A stretch of 40,407 bases of DNA from Nitrospinota bacterium (GTDB lineage Bacteria; Nitrospinota_A; UBA7883; JACRGQ01), in NCBI GenBank assembly GCA_016200345.1, contig JACQEX010000021.1, positions 1 to 40,407 of the forward strand, given 5' to 3'. The first letter of the stretch is position 1. Every line of letters starts with the position of its first letter. The notes beneath the pieces are model-generated. The model had not been told where the DNA came from and made no database searches. It saw nothing but the letters and a program-made list of their open reading frames with translations. The position numbers and the translations under genes were made by a program. This document shows, piece by piece, positions 2,524 to 40,407 of the stretch.

Positions 2524-2553
2524 CAAAGTACACGCTAAAGCGTGTACCCACCG
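2524..2553. repeat. dispersed GTAC-type palindrome
   Basis: GTACACGCT-AA-AGCGTGTAC (2528-2547), flanked by CCAA and CCACC. The identical palindrome occurs at 19102-19121, and relatives occur near 27185, 34567 and several times in 40121-40380. It lies in the short gap upstream of tatC. No transposase is associated. Confidence 0.75.
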
Positions 2554-2604
2554 CCTCCCCATTTGTTCGCGGAATAAAAGCGGTTGGGGTAGAATAGCGC
2601 GGAT

Positions 2605-4324: not shown

Positions 4325-4410
4325 AAACCACGAAATACACGAAAGAACACGAAAGGGAAAAGGGCCGTTTCCTCCCCCATTTCGTGCCTTTTCGTGATTT
4401 TCGTGGTTTT
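4325..4410. repeat. CACGAAA-family palindromic repeat, copy A
   Basis: The left arm (4325-4355) carries spaced CACGAAA words; the right arm (4380-4410) carries the complementary TTTCGTG words, with a loop of about 24 nt. It ends 4 bp from the stop codon of the convergent SUMF1-domain gene. The same design recurs at 5096-5185, 14407-14501 and, partly, 24212-24244. Confidence 0.85.
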
Positions 4411-4413
4411 ATT

Positions 4414-5151
4414 CTATTTGGCGCAACGGAAGCAGACGTTCATGAGCCCCCTGTCCGGCGCGAAGTCCGAGCGAATGGTGGTGCGAACGTCGTCAACGTT
4501 GTTTGTGTACGAGCCTCCGCGCAACGATCTGGTGGCCCCTTTTTCCAGCCCCTTTGGGTTATCCTTGGGGCTGTGCTCGTAATATCGCTTGTCGTAAAAG
4601 TCGCTCATCCACTCCCACACGTTGCCGGACATGTCGTACAGGCCGAGTCGGTTCGGGTTCTTCGTCCCAATCTCCACGGTGGTGGTGGCATTCGAGAAAA
4701 ACCACGCGTATTCGGTGACCTTTTTTTCGTCCTCTATGCCGGCGAATTTTTCCCTTTTCCCTCCGCTTCGCGCCGCGTATTCCCACTCGGCCTCGGTTGG
4801 AAGGCGCTTGCCTAGCCCGGCGCAGTATTTAGCCGCGTCGTCCCACGTAATCGTCTCCACCGGACACTTTGGGCAGTCGGAAAAATTGGAGGGGTTTGTA
4901 CCGGTTTTGGATTTGTAAATCTTTTGGGAGACCAGATATTTATCAATGAAAAAATCGTTTACGCAGACCTCGTGCTGAGGTTTTTCGTTTGCGTGGCCGC
5001 CGCCAAAGACGTCGCCCATCGAGTAACAGCCCCCTTTGACGTAGGCCATCCCCTCCGGGGCGTCGGCCCCGAACGCGGAATTCGAAAGAAATAACACAAA
5101 CCACGAAAAACACGAAAAGGCACGAAAAACTACGGAGTTAGTCAACCGCAT
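4414..5151 (-). CDS. exported SUMF1-domain (formylglycine-generating-enzyme-like) protein
   Basis: A 245-residue protein whose mature part (from about residue 30) is a complete SUMF1/FGE-sulfatase domain: MAYVKGGCYSMGD at the start, RLPTEAEWEYAARSG, GLYDMSGNVWEWMSDFY, SLRGGSY, and the closing CFRCAK. Authentic FGE enzymes have a Cys pair shortly before GFRCA; here that stretch reads RTTIRSDFAPDRG without Cys, so sulfatase activation is unlikely and another role is expected. The ATG at 5151 starts a signal peptide whose hydrophobic core (FRAFSCFSWFVLFL) is encoded by the left arm of a CACGAAA repeat. The gene lies between two such repeats, downstream of the radical SAM gene on the same strand. 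Confidence 0.85.
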   Translation of the reverse strand: MRLTNSVVFRAFSCFSWFVLFLSNSAFGADAPEGMAYVKGGCYSMGDVFGGGHANEKPQHEVCVNDFFIDKYLVSQKIYKSKTGTNPSNFSDCPKCPVETITWDDAAKYCAGLGKRLPTEAEWEYAARSGGKREKFAGIEDEKKVTEYAWFFSNATTTVEIGTKNPNRLGLYDMSGNVWEWMSDFYDKRYYEHSPKDNPKGLEKGATRSLRGGSYTNNVDDVRTTIRSDFAPDRGLMNVCFRCAK

Positions 5152-5185
5152 GTCCGCCGCCACTTTTCGTGCATTTCGTGGTTTG
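5096..5185. repeat. CACGAAA-family palindromic repeat, copy B
   Basis: Arms at 5096-5129 and 5162-5185 with three and two CACGAAA/TTTCGTG words. The loop contains the start codon (5149-5151) of the SUMF1-domain gene, and the left arm encodes its signal-peptide core. The right arm ends 4 bp before the stop of the radical SAM gene (5190-5192). Confidence 0.85.
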
Positions 5186-5189
5186 TTTT

Positions 5190-6950
5190 CTACTTCGTCT
5201 CGCTGTGGGAAAGCGCGTCCGCCGGTCGTTTGTGCTCCCTGTGCCGCACCCACCTGTTGTGCTCGGACGATTTTTGAACCGTCCCTTTTCTGTCGGGATA
5301 TGTCTGGCGAATCGTGAACGGCTGTCGCATGACGACGCCGTATTTCTTCAACTTTCTGTTTTCATTCCAGGCCAATATCCGAACGAACGGGGCCAGCAAT
5401 TTTTCAGACAACGGCACGGGGCCGAACGTCTCCAAGAATTTTTCCCTTATCATGCGGGCCTTCTGCGCGGACTCCCAGTTGGGCGCGTAAATCTCCGCCG
5501 GCTTCAATATCGGCCTAAACTCCAGGGCGCTTGTCTTCATCGCCTCGAGCCTCAGCCGCATGTACTCGTCCCTGACCGGCTTGTCGGACTTCACGTAGCC
5601 GAGTTCCTTGGAGTCCCAAACCATCCCGGCCTTTTCGCGCTCCTCGATTTCGCGCTTCACCGTCAGGTAGCCCTTCAAATAGGTGTGGGCCATGTTCAAA
5701 ACCCCCGGCCCGTGGGTGTGGTATTTCTTGATGAACGCCTGCCTCGTAATCTCGCGCGTCTCGTCCAGCGTGAAGTGGGGATGGTTGAACCAAATCTCGC
5801 TCTGCCCGTGCTGTTCCGGCCACGGCTTCCCTTTTATCAGTTTTCCCTCGGCGAGGTACTCCTTGAAAAGCCTCGTGCCGGGAATCGGCCCGAACTGCAT
5901 GAACTGCAGGAGGTCGGACTCCACCCCGATGGCCCAGTCAATGTCCTCGTTTATCGTCTCTTTGTCGTGGTGCTCCATGAAAAGGATTGCGGAGGCCAAA
6001 ACTGTGACGCCGTGGTTTTGCAGGTCGGCGATGAGCGCGTTCAAATCCACGCCGACAGTCTTTTCAAAAACGTTCGCCTTGGACTCTATTCCTATCCAGA
6101 GGAACTTCACGCCCATCCTGACGAAGAAGTCCACCCCGAGTTTGCCGATTGTCTCCGCCGACGAGAAGGTGGAGAATGTGTAGGCCTTTCCGGCCTTTTC
6201 CATCTCCGCCAAAAGCTCGCGCGCCCTTTTCGGGCTTTTGCCGAAGTTTTCGTCCATTATAGCGAAATCGGTGACCTTCAGCGCCTTTCCGGTTTTTTCG
6301 CACGCGTCGAAGACGTCTTTCCCGCTTGAAAGAAACGCGGTGTACTGCTTTTCAAATTTGTGCGTCGTGGCGCAAAAGCGGCAGGTGTTCTGGCATCCCA
6401 CGCCGGAGACGAGTATCCCGGCCTCGCTTATTATGGGCGCGCCGTAGACGTATTTCCTGATGCCTGAAGCCACGACGGGATGAATGATGGGCTTGTCCAC
6501 GTCCTCGCCGAAATATTTTCTAAGCCAAGTGACGCCCTCGCCCCTGCAAAGCTCGTCGTAATCCACTATTTCGTCCAGTTCCGGAATCGCCGCGCCGTGG
6601 CCGCCGAGCATGATGACCGTCTCGGAGTTGTTTTTTCGCACGTACTCGGCCATTCTTTTTGCCTTCAGCACGTTCGGGGCAATGAACGATATACCGACGT
6701 GGGTGTAGCCTCCCTTGTCAACTTCCTTTGCGAACTCCTCCCAACTCGGGAAATCCAGCACCGTGGCCGGAACCTCCACGTTTTCGGCCATAAGGTATAG
6801 TCCGAAGCTGGGATTGTTGGATCTTGGTGAATGAACGCCCTGTTCGCGCGTAACCTGGTTGTTCAGCAATTCCATGGTGCACAGGGCCTCGCCATACTCG
6901 TCGTCCACGCCGAACGGCTTAAAAACCCCGGCCAATAATAATTTACTCAT
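5190..6950 (-). CDS. B12-binding-domain radical SAM protein
   Basis: A 586-residue enzyme of the cobalamin-binding radical SAM class. Residues about 1-160 form a B12-binding Rossmann-like domain without the canonical DxHxxG (VGISFIAPNVLKAKRMAEYV, MLGGHGA). The [4Fe-4S] cluster motif GCQNTCRFC gives Cys186, Cys190 and Cys193 (Cx3Cx2C). The GIESKANVFEKT region follows, with a Lys/Arg-rich C-terminal extension. ATG at 6950 with GGAAGGAAG upstream. The substrate cannot be inferred; relatives include methyltransferases and ring-forming enzymes. The only neighbour on the same strand downstream is the SUMF1-domain gene, across a palindromic repeat. Confidence 0.85.
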   Translation of the reverse strand: MSKLLLAGVFKPFGVDDEYGEALCTMELLNNQVTREQGVHSPRSNNPSFGLYLMAENVEVPATVLDFPSWEEFAKEVDKGGYTHVGISFIAPNVLKAKRMAEYVRKNNSETVIMLGGHGAAIPELDEIVDYDELCRGEGVTWLRKYFGEDVDKPIIHPVVASGIRKYVYGAPIISEAGILVSGVGCQNTCRFCATTHKFEKQYTAFLSSGKDVFDACEKTGKALKVTDFAIMDENFGKSPKRARELLAEMEKAGKAYTFSTFSSAETIGKLGVDFFVRMGVKFLWIGIESKANVFEKTVGVDLNALIADLQNHGVTVLASAILFMEHHDKETINEDIDWAIGVESDLLQFMQFGPIPGTRLFKEYLAEGKLIKGKPWPEQHGQSEIWFNHPHFTLDETREITRQAFIKKYHTHGPGVLNMAHTYLKGYLTVKREIEEREKAGMVWDSKELGYVKSDKPVRDEYMRLRLEAMKTSALEFRPILKPAEIYAPNWESAQKARMIREKFLETFGPVPLSEKLLAPFVRILAWNENRKLKKYGVVMRQPFTIRQTYPDRKGTVQKSSEHNRWVRHREHKRPADALSHSETK

Positions 6951-13163: not shown

Positions 13164-14408
13164 ATGGACTTCTCTACCTACAAAAAGGCGCTGTTAAACA
13201 AAAAAATCGCCTCAATGCTTTTTCTCGGCTTCTCGTCCGGTCTGCCCCTCGCCCTTACCGCCGGCACCCTCTCAGCCTGGATGTCGGTCGAAAAAATTGA
13301 CGTCAAAACCATCGGCCTCTTCGCGCTGGTCGGCGCGCCATACACGCTGAAATTCCTCTGGGCTCCGGCTATGGACAGGTTTGTCCTCCCGTTCCTCGGC
13401 AGGCGGCGCGGCTGGATGCTCATAGCACAGGTCGCGCTGATAGCCTCAATCTCCGCGATGGCGTTCGTCTCCCCGCAGTCGGCCCCTCTCCTGCTCGGCG
13501 CGCTTGCCGTCGTCACGTCGTTCCTCTCCGCGTCGCAGGACGTGGTGATAGACGCGTACAGAACCGACGTCCTCGGCGAGGAGGAACGGGGCGAGGGGGT
13601 CGCGGTGTTCGTCGCGGGTTACAGAATCGCCATGCTCGTATCCGGCGCGGCGGCGCTCGTCCTTTCCGACCACATAGGCTGGCAGGCGACCTATCTGGCA
13701 ATGGCCTGTTTGATGACGGTCGGAATAGCCACCACTCTGGTTTGCCCAGAGCCGCCGGACAGGGCAAACGCTCCGCGCACAATCGCCGACGCCGCCGTCC
13801 TACCGCTGAGGGATTTTTTCTCGCGCCGATCCGCTATGGTTTTGTTACTGCTAATCGTGCTTTTCAAACTGCCGGACGCGTACGCCGGGGTCATGACCAC
13901 CCCGTTTTTGATACGCGGCATGGGCTTCTCGCCGTCCGACGTGGGGCTGGTGAACAAGGGGTTTGGTCTGGTTGCGATGATTGCCGGCGCGATGCTCGGC
14001 GGAGCGATGATGGTGAGGCTCGGCCTTTTTCGCTCGCTGGTTTTGTTCGGCTTTTTACAGGCCGGCTCCTGCCTCGCCTTTTCGTTGCTGGCGGGAGTCG
14101 GCAAAATTTATCCCGTGATGGTTTTTGCGGTGGGGGTGGAAAATTTTTGCGGAGGGATGGGAACATCCGCGTTTGTCGCCCTCTTGATGGCTCTTTGCAA
14201 CCCGGCGTACAGCGCAACGCAATTCGCGCTGTTGTCGTCACTTTCGTCGCTCGGGAGGGTGTTCATCTCCCCCACGGCGGGGTTTGCGGTGGCGCAGTTC
14301 GGGTGGGTGAATTTTTTCGCCCTCTCGGCGCTCGTCGGCGCACCGGGACTTTTGCTATTATGGTTCCTGAAAAAAAACGTCCAAGAATTGGAAAAAAACA
14401 AAGAATAA
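13164..14408 (+). CDS. AmpG-like MFS permease
   Basis: A 414-residue, twelve-helix inner-membrane transporter. Features shared with AmpG muropeptide permeases are LGFSSGLPLALTAGTLSAWM in helix 1, PYTLKFLWAPAMDRF before helix 3, RRRGWM in the 2-3 loop, and SQDVVIDAYRTDVLGEEERG before helix 5. AmpG imports anhydro-muropeptides for recycling; whether this copy does is inferred from family only. The ATG at 13164 is chosen over a longer frame from 13035, because the extra 43 residues are unlike the family and overlap a hairpin. The stop codon is embedded in a CACGAAA repeat. Confidence 0.82.
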   Translation: MDFSTYKKALLNKKIASMLFLGFSSGLPLALTAGTLSAWMSVEKIDVKTIGLFALVGAPYTLKFLWAPAMDRFVLPFLGRRRGWMLIAQVALIASISAMAFVSPQSAPLLLGALAVVTSFLSASQDVVIDAYRTDVLGEEERGEGVAVFVAGYRIAMLVSGAAALVLSDHIGWQATYLAMACLMTVGIATTLVCPEPPDRANAPRTIADAAVLPLRDFFSRRSAMVLLLLIVLFKLPDAYAGVMTTPFLIRGMGFSPSDVGLVNKGFGLVAMIAGAMLGGAMMVRLGLFRSLVLFGFLQAGSCLAFSLLAGVGKIYPVMVFAVGVENFCGGMGTSAFVALLMALCNPAYSATQFALLSSLSSLGRVFISPTAGFAVAQFGWVNFFALSALVGAPGLLLLWFLKKNVQELEKNKE

Positions 14409-14530
14409 ACCACGAAATGCACGAAAAACACGAAAGGGTCTGTTTTTATTTACCAATAAGCTCCTCCGCATTTTCGTGCCTTTTTGTGTTTTTCGTGGCT
14501 TGCATTCGCGTTCTTCGCGCCTTCGCGTGA
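14407..14530. repeat. CACGAAA-family palindromic repeat, copy C, with a TTCGCG arm
   Basis: Arms at 14407-14438 and 14471-14501 repeat the CACGAAA/TTTCGTG pattern. A second word family (ATTCGCGTTCTTCGCG, CCTTCGCGTGAG) follows at 14504-14530, the same as at 24252-24278. The element begins inside the stop codon of the AmpG-like gene (14406-14408). Confidence 0.8.
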
Positions 14531-19039: not shown

Positions 19040-19190
19040 CGTTTACTGTGGTAGGTACGGGTTTTAACCTGTACTCCTTCGGATTGGCGCTCCGCGCCAA
19101 AGTACACGCTAAAGCGTGTACCTACCAAGCGTGTACCTACCAAGCGTGTACCTACCAAGCGTGTACCCACCAAGCGTGTACCCACCGGAA
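19040..19190. repeat. GTAC-type palindromes with a 15-bp tandem array
   Basis: GGTACGGGTTTTAACCTGTAC and then GTACACGCT-AA-AGCGTGTAC (19102-19121) are followed by five tandem copies of AAGCGTGTACCTACC or its CCCACC variant (19112-19186). The array reiterates one half of the palindrome, as if by slippage or rolling amplification. The region downstream of the M23 peptidase gene holds nothing else that I can identify. Confidence 0.85.
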
Positions 19191-24064: not shown

Positions 24065-24278
24065 TTCTCACGCGAAGGCGCGAAAAACGCGAAGAAATGC
24101 GGGGAGAAGTTTTTGCGCCCCCGGCGAATTCCAGTTTGCATTTCCCGTGTCATCTCCGCCACAACTTGGGGGCGAGGGGACGAATTCGAATTTCCAGCGT
24201 TAGCCGGACAAAGTTTTCGTGTTTTTCGTGTCTTTCGTGGTTTTCATCCCCCTTCGCGTTCTTCGCGCCTTCGCGTGC
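24065..24278. repeat. composite TTCGCG / CACGAAA repeat between sufB and yajC
   Basis: A left arm at 24065-24097 (CACGCGAAGGCGCGAAAAACG words) pairs with a right arm at 24252-24278 (TTCGCG words); inside it, 24212-24244 is a single right arm of the CACGAAA family. The 24099-24210 middle shows nothing recognisable. The same two word families adjoin at 14471-14530. Confidence 0.75.
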
Positions 24279-34508: not shown

Positions 34509-34566
34509 GTTAAAAATCTAACCGACCCTACAATTTCCGAACCGCCACCAAGAAGGTCAGCAACAA

Positions 34567-34591
34567 GTGCAGGCTGAAGCCCGCACCTACC
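34567..34591. repeat. GTGCAGGCT/AGCCCGCAC palindrome
   Basis: A copy of the GTAC/GTGC repeat family, GTGCAGGCT-GA-AGCCCGCAC followed by CTACC, between the cyclase-like gene and the convergent HTH gene. Nearly the same as the copy near 40200. Confidence 0.7.
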
Positions 34592-34616
34592 GAGAATAAG
34601 GAACCAAGTTGGGCGG

Positions 34617-40120: not shown

Positions 40121-40380
40121 AACCCGGTAGGCACGGCCTTTAGGCTGTACTACATCGGCGCGGAGCGCCAACACTAAAACTATTGTCGCTTGCGCGACAA
40201 AGTGCAGGCTAAAGCCCGCACCTACCGAAAAACAGCACATGAACTTACGCACTCGGTAGGCACGGCCTTTAGGCTGTGCTACATCGGCCTGACAAGGCCG
40301 AAAAAATACCCCCGCCGGGGTGACAGAATGAGAGATTGGCGCTTCGCGCCAAGGTACAGGCTAAAGCCCGTACCTACCAA
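40121..40380. repeat. cluster of GTAC/GTGC-type palindromes
   Basis: Four palindromic copies, all built from GGTAGGCACGGCCTTTAGGC or GCAGGCTAAAGCCCGCACC/GTACAGGCTAAAGCCCGTACC words, with the linking word AACAGCACATGAACTT repeated twice (about 40235 and 40380). No gene is evident from 40041 to the window end. Confidence 0.8.
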
Positions 40381-40407
40381 AACAGCACATGAACTTCAGC
40401 ATTCCAA

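Follow-up and report, generated by a model that had tools for sequence, protein, structure and literature searches.

A gene for a SUMF1/FGE-sulfatase domain protein, located on a 40,407-nucleotide stretch of DNA from a Nitrospinota bacterium (GenBank assembly GCA_016200345.1, contig JACQEX010000021.1; the whole stretch is hereafter the window), has its predicted start codon within a dispersed palindromic repeat built of CACGAAA units. The gene (4414..5151, minus strand) codes for 245 amino acids with the domain at residues 33-245, which matches PF03781 with 162.6 bits against a curated cut-off of 23.3. The repeat copy in question, copy B (5098..5184), has AAACCACGAAA-type arms and a loop of about 36 nucleotides (nt), and is adjoined on its other side by the stop codon of a gene for a B12-binding radical SAM protein (5190..6950, minus strand). 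An earlier reading of the window from its letters alone (the sequence-only reading) had placed the start ATG in the loop of this palindrome, and this holds: the ATG lies there, at 5149-5151 on the minus strand, and the reading frame is unbroken from it through the arm to the stop at 4414.

Composition of the predicted signal peptide

The arms of copy B consist of AAACCACGAAAnnCACGAAAnnnCACGAAA and its reverse complement on either side of the loop and are 89% complementary over 27 nt. The left, upstream arm (5164..5184) has only two CACGAAA units in place of the usual three; the right arm (5098..5127, minus strand) has three, matches the family consensus and, in the frame of the gene, encodes FRAFSCFSWF, which forms residues 9-18 of the predicted N-terminus MRLTNSVVFRAFSCFSWFVLFLSNSAFGADAPEGMAYVKGG.... 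The loop (about 5128..5163, minus strand) holds the putative ribosome site GTGGCGGCGG as well as the ATG and the codons for residues 1-8, MRLTNSVV (nt 5151-5128). That it is a normal family loop was ruled out, since among 25 loops it alone is unlike the rest (z of the mean score 0.1), most of which score z 2 to 11; several further copies also have aberrant loops (z 1.2-2.0). Following the arm is a unique, non-repeat flank coding for VLFLSNSAFGA (residues 19-29; 5065..5097, minus strand), which provides the end of the hydrophobic core, VLFL (5097-5086), and the cleavage region, SNSAFGA (5085-5065). The sole part of the leader resembling the repeat family is residues 9-18 (nt 5127-5098). The sequence-only reading had the arm supply FRAFSCFSWFVLFL as the hydrophobic core; FRAFSCFSWF does come from the arm and forms part of that core, but the assignment runs four residues too far, as VLFL lies outside the repeat, and neither the cleavage region nor the loop-encoded MRLTNSVV is family sequence. 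The repeat appears to encode about a third of the predicted export signal.

We evaluated candidate N-termini using a simple feature score that considers 12-residue hydropathy, charge, and small residues at positions -3 and -1. By this measure the leader looks like an otherwise normal signal peptide, as had been proposed, with a core hydropathy of 2.07, a charge of +2 and a cleavage site at AFG-AD, whereas proteins starting at GTG 5097 or ATG 5049 score 0.41 and have no core. The nearest protein relatives, at about 43-54% identity and from the same family and class, lack the repeat; their N-termini are unrelated to that encoded at copy B and resemble ordinary or lipoprotein signal peptides of similar length, all ending at the same point before a conserved (A)PEGM (G006, with MKFPALVKIPLLLALSLPLAAASSELPTAPEGM, and G010, G009, G011 and G018). 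The core hydropathy of these leaders is 2.1-3.15 and their charge +1 to +4, and the score places the copy B leader in their range. Repeat-free homologues with a different N-terminus are what the sequence-only reading had suggested looking for.

These comparisons indicate that the predicted signal peptide is a hybrid of repeat arm and non-repeat sequence, and that the SUMF1-domain protein is probably exported. Given that the alternative starts leave no signal and that the repeat-free homologues carry predicted export signals, the best reading is a patched signal on an exported protein. Export, we infer, predates the arrival of the repeat, which would have replaced or lengthened the front of the signal. 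The further claim, that a non-coding repeat was exapted as an export signal, is not supported: the family would already have been exported, and the repeat contributes nothing to the cleavage region and only part of the core. As a whole, the explanation we favor, with a probability of roughly 55%, is that a non-autonomous palindrome, resembling a miniature inverted-repeat transposable element (MITE), landed in the very short spacer that separates the SUMF1 gene from the radical SAM gene, across the start of the former, whose product already had an ordinary signal peptide. The original 5' end of the gene would thereby have been replaced, such that the present signal would take its start and n-region, MRLTNSVV, from the loop, its first ten core residues, FRAFSCFSWF, from the repeat arm, and the rest of the core with the cleavage region, VLFLSNSAFG-AD, from the original gene. 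This hybrid would act as a normal Sec signal peptide.

The anatomy of copy B might also be accounted for by insertion of an arm alone. Here the loop would be the native start region (ATGCGGTTGACTAACTCC, ribosome site, ATG and MRLTNSVV), into which a 30-nt arm was inserted in frame before VLFLSNSAFGA, lengthening the native signal by ten residues, with the two-unit upstream arm being a separate arrival or the product of a local inverted duplication. The uniquely dissimilar loop, the shortened upstream arm, and the length of the inserted arm, a multiple of three with its edges on codon borders, all favor such a history. However, it needs two events at one site, and yet yields a palindrome with its arms in the usual places; it would leave a native leader of just 19 residues; and aberrant loops are also seen in the several other copies mentioned above. 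We therefore regard it as improbable.

The repeat family and its insertion into gene junctions

The CACGAAA repeat is a hairpin-forming palindrome of ~95 bp that occurs at ~61 sites, including half copies, in the genome under study (G000; 2.24 Mb in 113 contigs). Searches with the arm pattern hit the genome 99 times, whereas the reversed control hit it 5 times; with the pattern in a second form the figures were 89 and 0. The abundance of the repeat is thus far beyond chance, and it is a dispersed palindromic repeat, as the sequence-only reading had it. Its size and form agree with those of bacterial MITEs (about 100-200 bp, many copies, a long stem-loop). At copy B, inspected by eye, there is no clear target-site duplication, and no transposase was linked to the repeat, one of four candidate Y1_Tnp loci having been read (see below); searches against Rfam gave no RNA family match at the repeats. 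The same-genus genome used for comparison (G001) has no copy; among the family-level relatives G004 alone has a match (n=1), and of the 385 genomes searched just 4 contain an exact match to the arm. This distribution suggests that the repeat either spread in the G000 lineage once this had separated from G001 or disappeared from G001.

Nearly all copies are intergenic. In the window, apart from copy B, these are copy A (4325..4409), just 3' of the SUMF1 stop codon, copy C (14407..14501), at the stop codon of another open reading frame (ORF), and a half copy (24185..24243). Many copies sit directly at gene stop codons (window 4410-4416, 5190-5192 and 14406-14408; loci L077, L090, L098, L105, L106 and L116), and sometimes the stop codon is made by the repeat edge itself (TAA-ACC). 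Dispersed palindromes of another set, bearing the tags GGTAGGTAC...GTACCTACC, are also present in the window (2526-2557, 19050-19186, 34565-34596 and 40126-40383), among them a tandem array of 15-nt units (19112-19186). The window further has 39-nt direct repeats at 1292-1536 that lie within an ORF and code for a repetitive protein segment.

Two loci elsewhere in G000 bear on the proposed insertion. At locus L101 (2734-1967, contig C74) a half copy is read in frame within a protein as the stretch TTKDTKGHEKGDE, which is missing from the paralogue on contig C21; thus repeats do enter reading frames in this genome. After this stretch the L101 protein has an apparent second repeat family in frame. 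At the other locus, waaA and a dcm-type methyltransferase gene overlap in G001 without a repeat, a near-empty site, and are separated by the repeat in G000, which shows insertion into a tight gene junction like that proposed for copy B.

This dcm gene (L111 3954-5064, contig C95) is closely flanked by two repeat copies, a layout like that of the SUMF1 gene between copies A and B, which raises the question whether the latter gene is a mobile single-gene cassette. Consistent with mobility, the SUMF1 gene has different neighbors in the relatives, and in no relative locus read is the radical SAM gene beside a SUMF1 gene. For dcm, a cassette was ruled out by the repeat-free waaA-dcm arrangement in G001, which implies that the repeats arrived later there and argues against mobile cassettes; moreover, with ~60 sites in roughly 2000 gaps, chance alone would by our estimate give about two adjacent pairs. 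A SUMF1 cassette accordingly seems extremely unlikely. In G001 both contigs concerned end at the place equivalent to the SUMF1 insertion. These ends, the tail of C89 (L149) and the head of C112 (L136), carry a similar sequence, GGTAGYGCCTYRGTTTGAAA, as though the assembly were interrupted by a further repeat.

Use of the loop start and leaders expected by chance

The ribosome site of the loop ATG, at an energy of -4.8, compares with a median of -4.0 for the genome, and this ATG is the start that we infer to be in use. Counting against its use is a strong hairpin: the ATG and its surroundings lie within a structure of -52.7 kcal/mol (z -7.8), and just 2 of 198 compared starts, which were simple first-ATG calls, are less accessible. 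The stop codon of the radical SAM gene at 5190 is 39 nt upstream of the loop ATG, so coupled translation could help initiation. The downstream ATG 5049 has GGAGG two bases upstream and a ribosome-site energy of -5.4.

To gauge how often the repeat yields leaders by chance we read 31 full copies outwards on both strands in three frames, which gave 186 readings from 62 arms. Open readings with an in-frame start numbered 54, and in 26 the hydrophobicity equalled or exceeded that of the stretch that the repeat encodes in copy B; by composition, 22 of the 62 arms have at least one such hydrophobic frame with a start. The arm sequence TTTCGTGnnTTTCGTGG is translated into F, V, S, C, W and L and rarely into a stop, and thus a leader-like peptide is almost inherent in the repeat. 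Chance does not explain the in-frame, correctly spaced join to the remainder of a signal before an export-type domain. Across the about 61 sites surveyed no other homology-supported gene starts inside a copy, and the idea that the repeat serves repeatedly as a leader was rejected: purD, dcm and the birA-like and endonuclease-IV-like genes (the latter two named by sequence recognition only) have their own starts after the repeat. Along with the compositional origin of hydrophobic leaders and the hairpin over the ATG, this null result of the survey that the sequence-only reading had called for further weakens the case for exaptation. Since hydrophobic cores can be read from the arms in several frames, and starts often from the loops, one might imagine the family as a ready-made source of export signals, its insertions near genes repairing or creating signal peptides, but we deem this very improbable.

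The hairpin and the inaccessibility of the loop ATG, and the 22 arms with comparable leaders, weigh against a patched signal. So does the occurrence of the SUMF1 gene and the repeat together in one genome only, which deprives us of an argument from conservation; the SUMF1-domain gene is absent from G001, and a search of genome contigs recovered distant homologues only. The main rival explanation also draws on the hairpin and the arm readings: as leaders arise so readily by composition, the peptide at copy B could be fortuitous, the repeat having destroyed the original start and its arm being merely open and hydrophobic. The gene would then be poorly translated, or started downstream at GTG 5097 or ATG 5049 without an export signal, and be on its way to loss, to which its absence from G001 and the ribosome site of ATG 5049 lend some support. 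On the other hand, the 245-codon frame is intact, with a good coding score and a full FGE-sulfatase domain; ATG 5049 is no more accessible than the loop ATG and lies inside the PEGM motif, which in homologues is retained in the protein behind the signal peptide; and the cysteine-rich domain and the homologue leaders point to an exported protein. We consider a fortuitous or unused leader somewhat unlikely.

Relationship to known palindromic elements

Signal peptides built from a repeat have already been published, and the present case differs from them in element and protein, not in kind. In the Yersinia gene YPO1552 a YPAL/RU-2 element codes for residues 1-30 of a 41-residue predicted signal peptide (Delihas 2007, PMC2759123; reviewed in PMC2229807), flanking sequence provides the remainder with the cleavage site, and homologues without the element are also predicted to have signal peptides (PMC2759123). 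Copy B is alike in that a dispersed palindrome overlaps the 5' end of a gene and is read in frame, supplying part of a leader that by simple features fits a signal peptide, in that the flank gives the rest with the putative cleavage site, and in that the element-free homologues have signal-peptide-like leaders. The differences are that RU-2 is about 168 bp long, of other sequence and in another protein, that the YPO1552 locus is conserved between strains whereas the copy B fusion is found in one genome only, and that the family-like repeat here covers residues 9-18. The Rickettsia palindromic elements (RPE) found within protein genes (Ogata et al. 2000, reviewed in PMC2229807) are a general precedent for palindromes of similar size read in frame, and the L101 protein is RPE-like. 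Here, by contrast, nearly all copies are between genes, and copy B lies at an N-terminus. In being dispersed, many-copy palindromes the repeats also recall the repetitive extragenic palindromic (REP) and REPIN elements, which are moved by RAYT transposases (PMC2817692, PMC8266576), and G000 has four Y1_Tnp-type genes. However, at the one of these four loci that was read, the RAYT-like gene (L101 2980-3480, contig C74) is flanked by GTAG-type palindromes, GGTAGAGGCGACA...TGTCGCCTCTACC, and not by CACGAAA repeats, and it was rejected as their mover.

The finding opens no new mechanism. If the loop start is used, it would be a further independent case of a small mobile palindrome replacing part of a signal peptide without loss of export, found in a lineage remote from those in which such cases were described, the enterobacteria and Rickettsia, and the arm itself would show the reason, in that TTTCGTG reads as hydrophobic residues and seldom as a stop.
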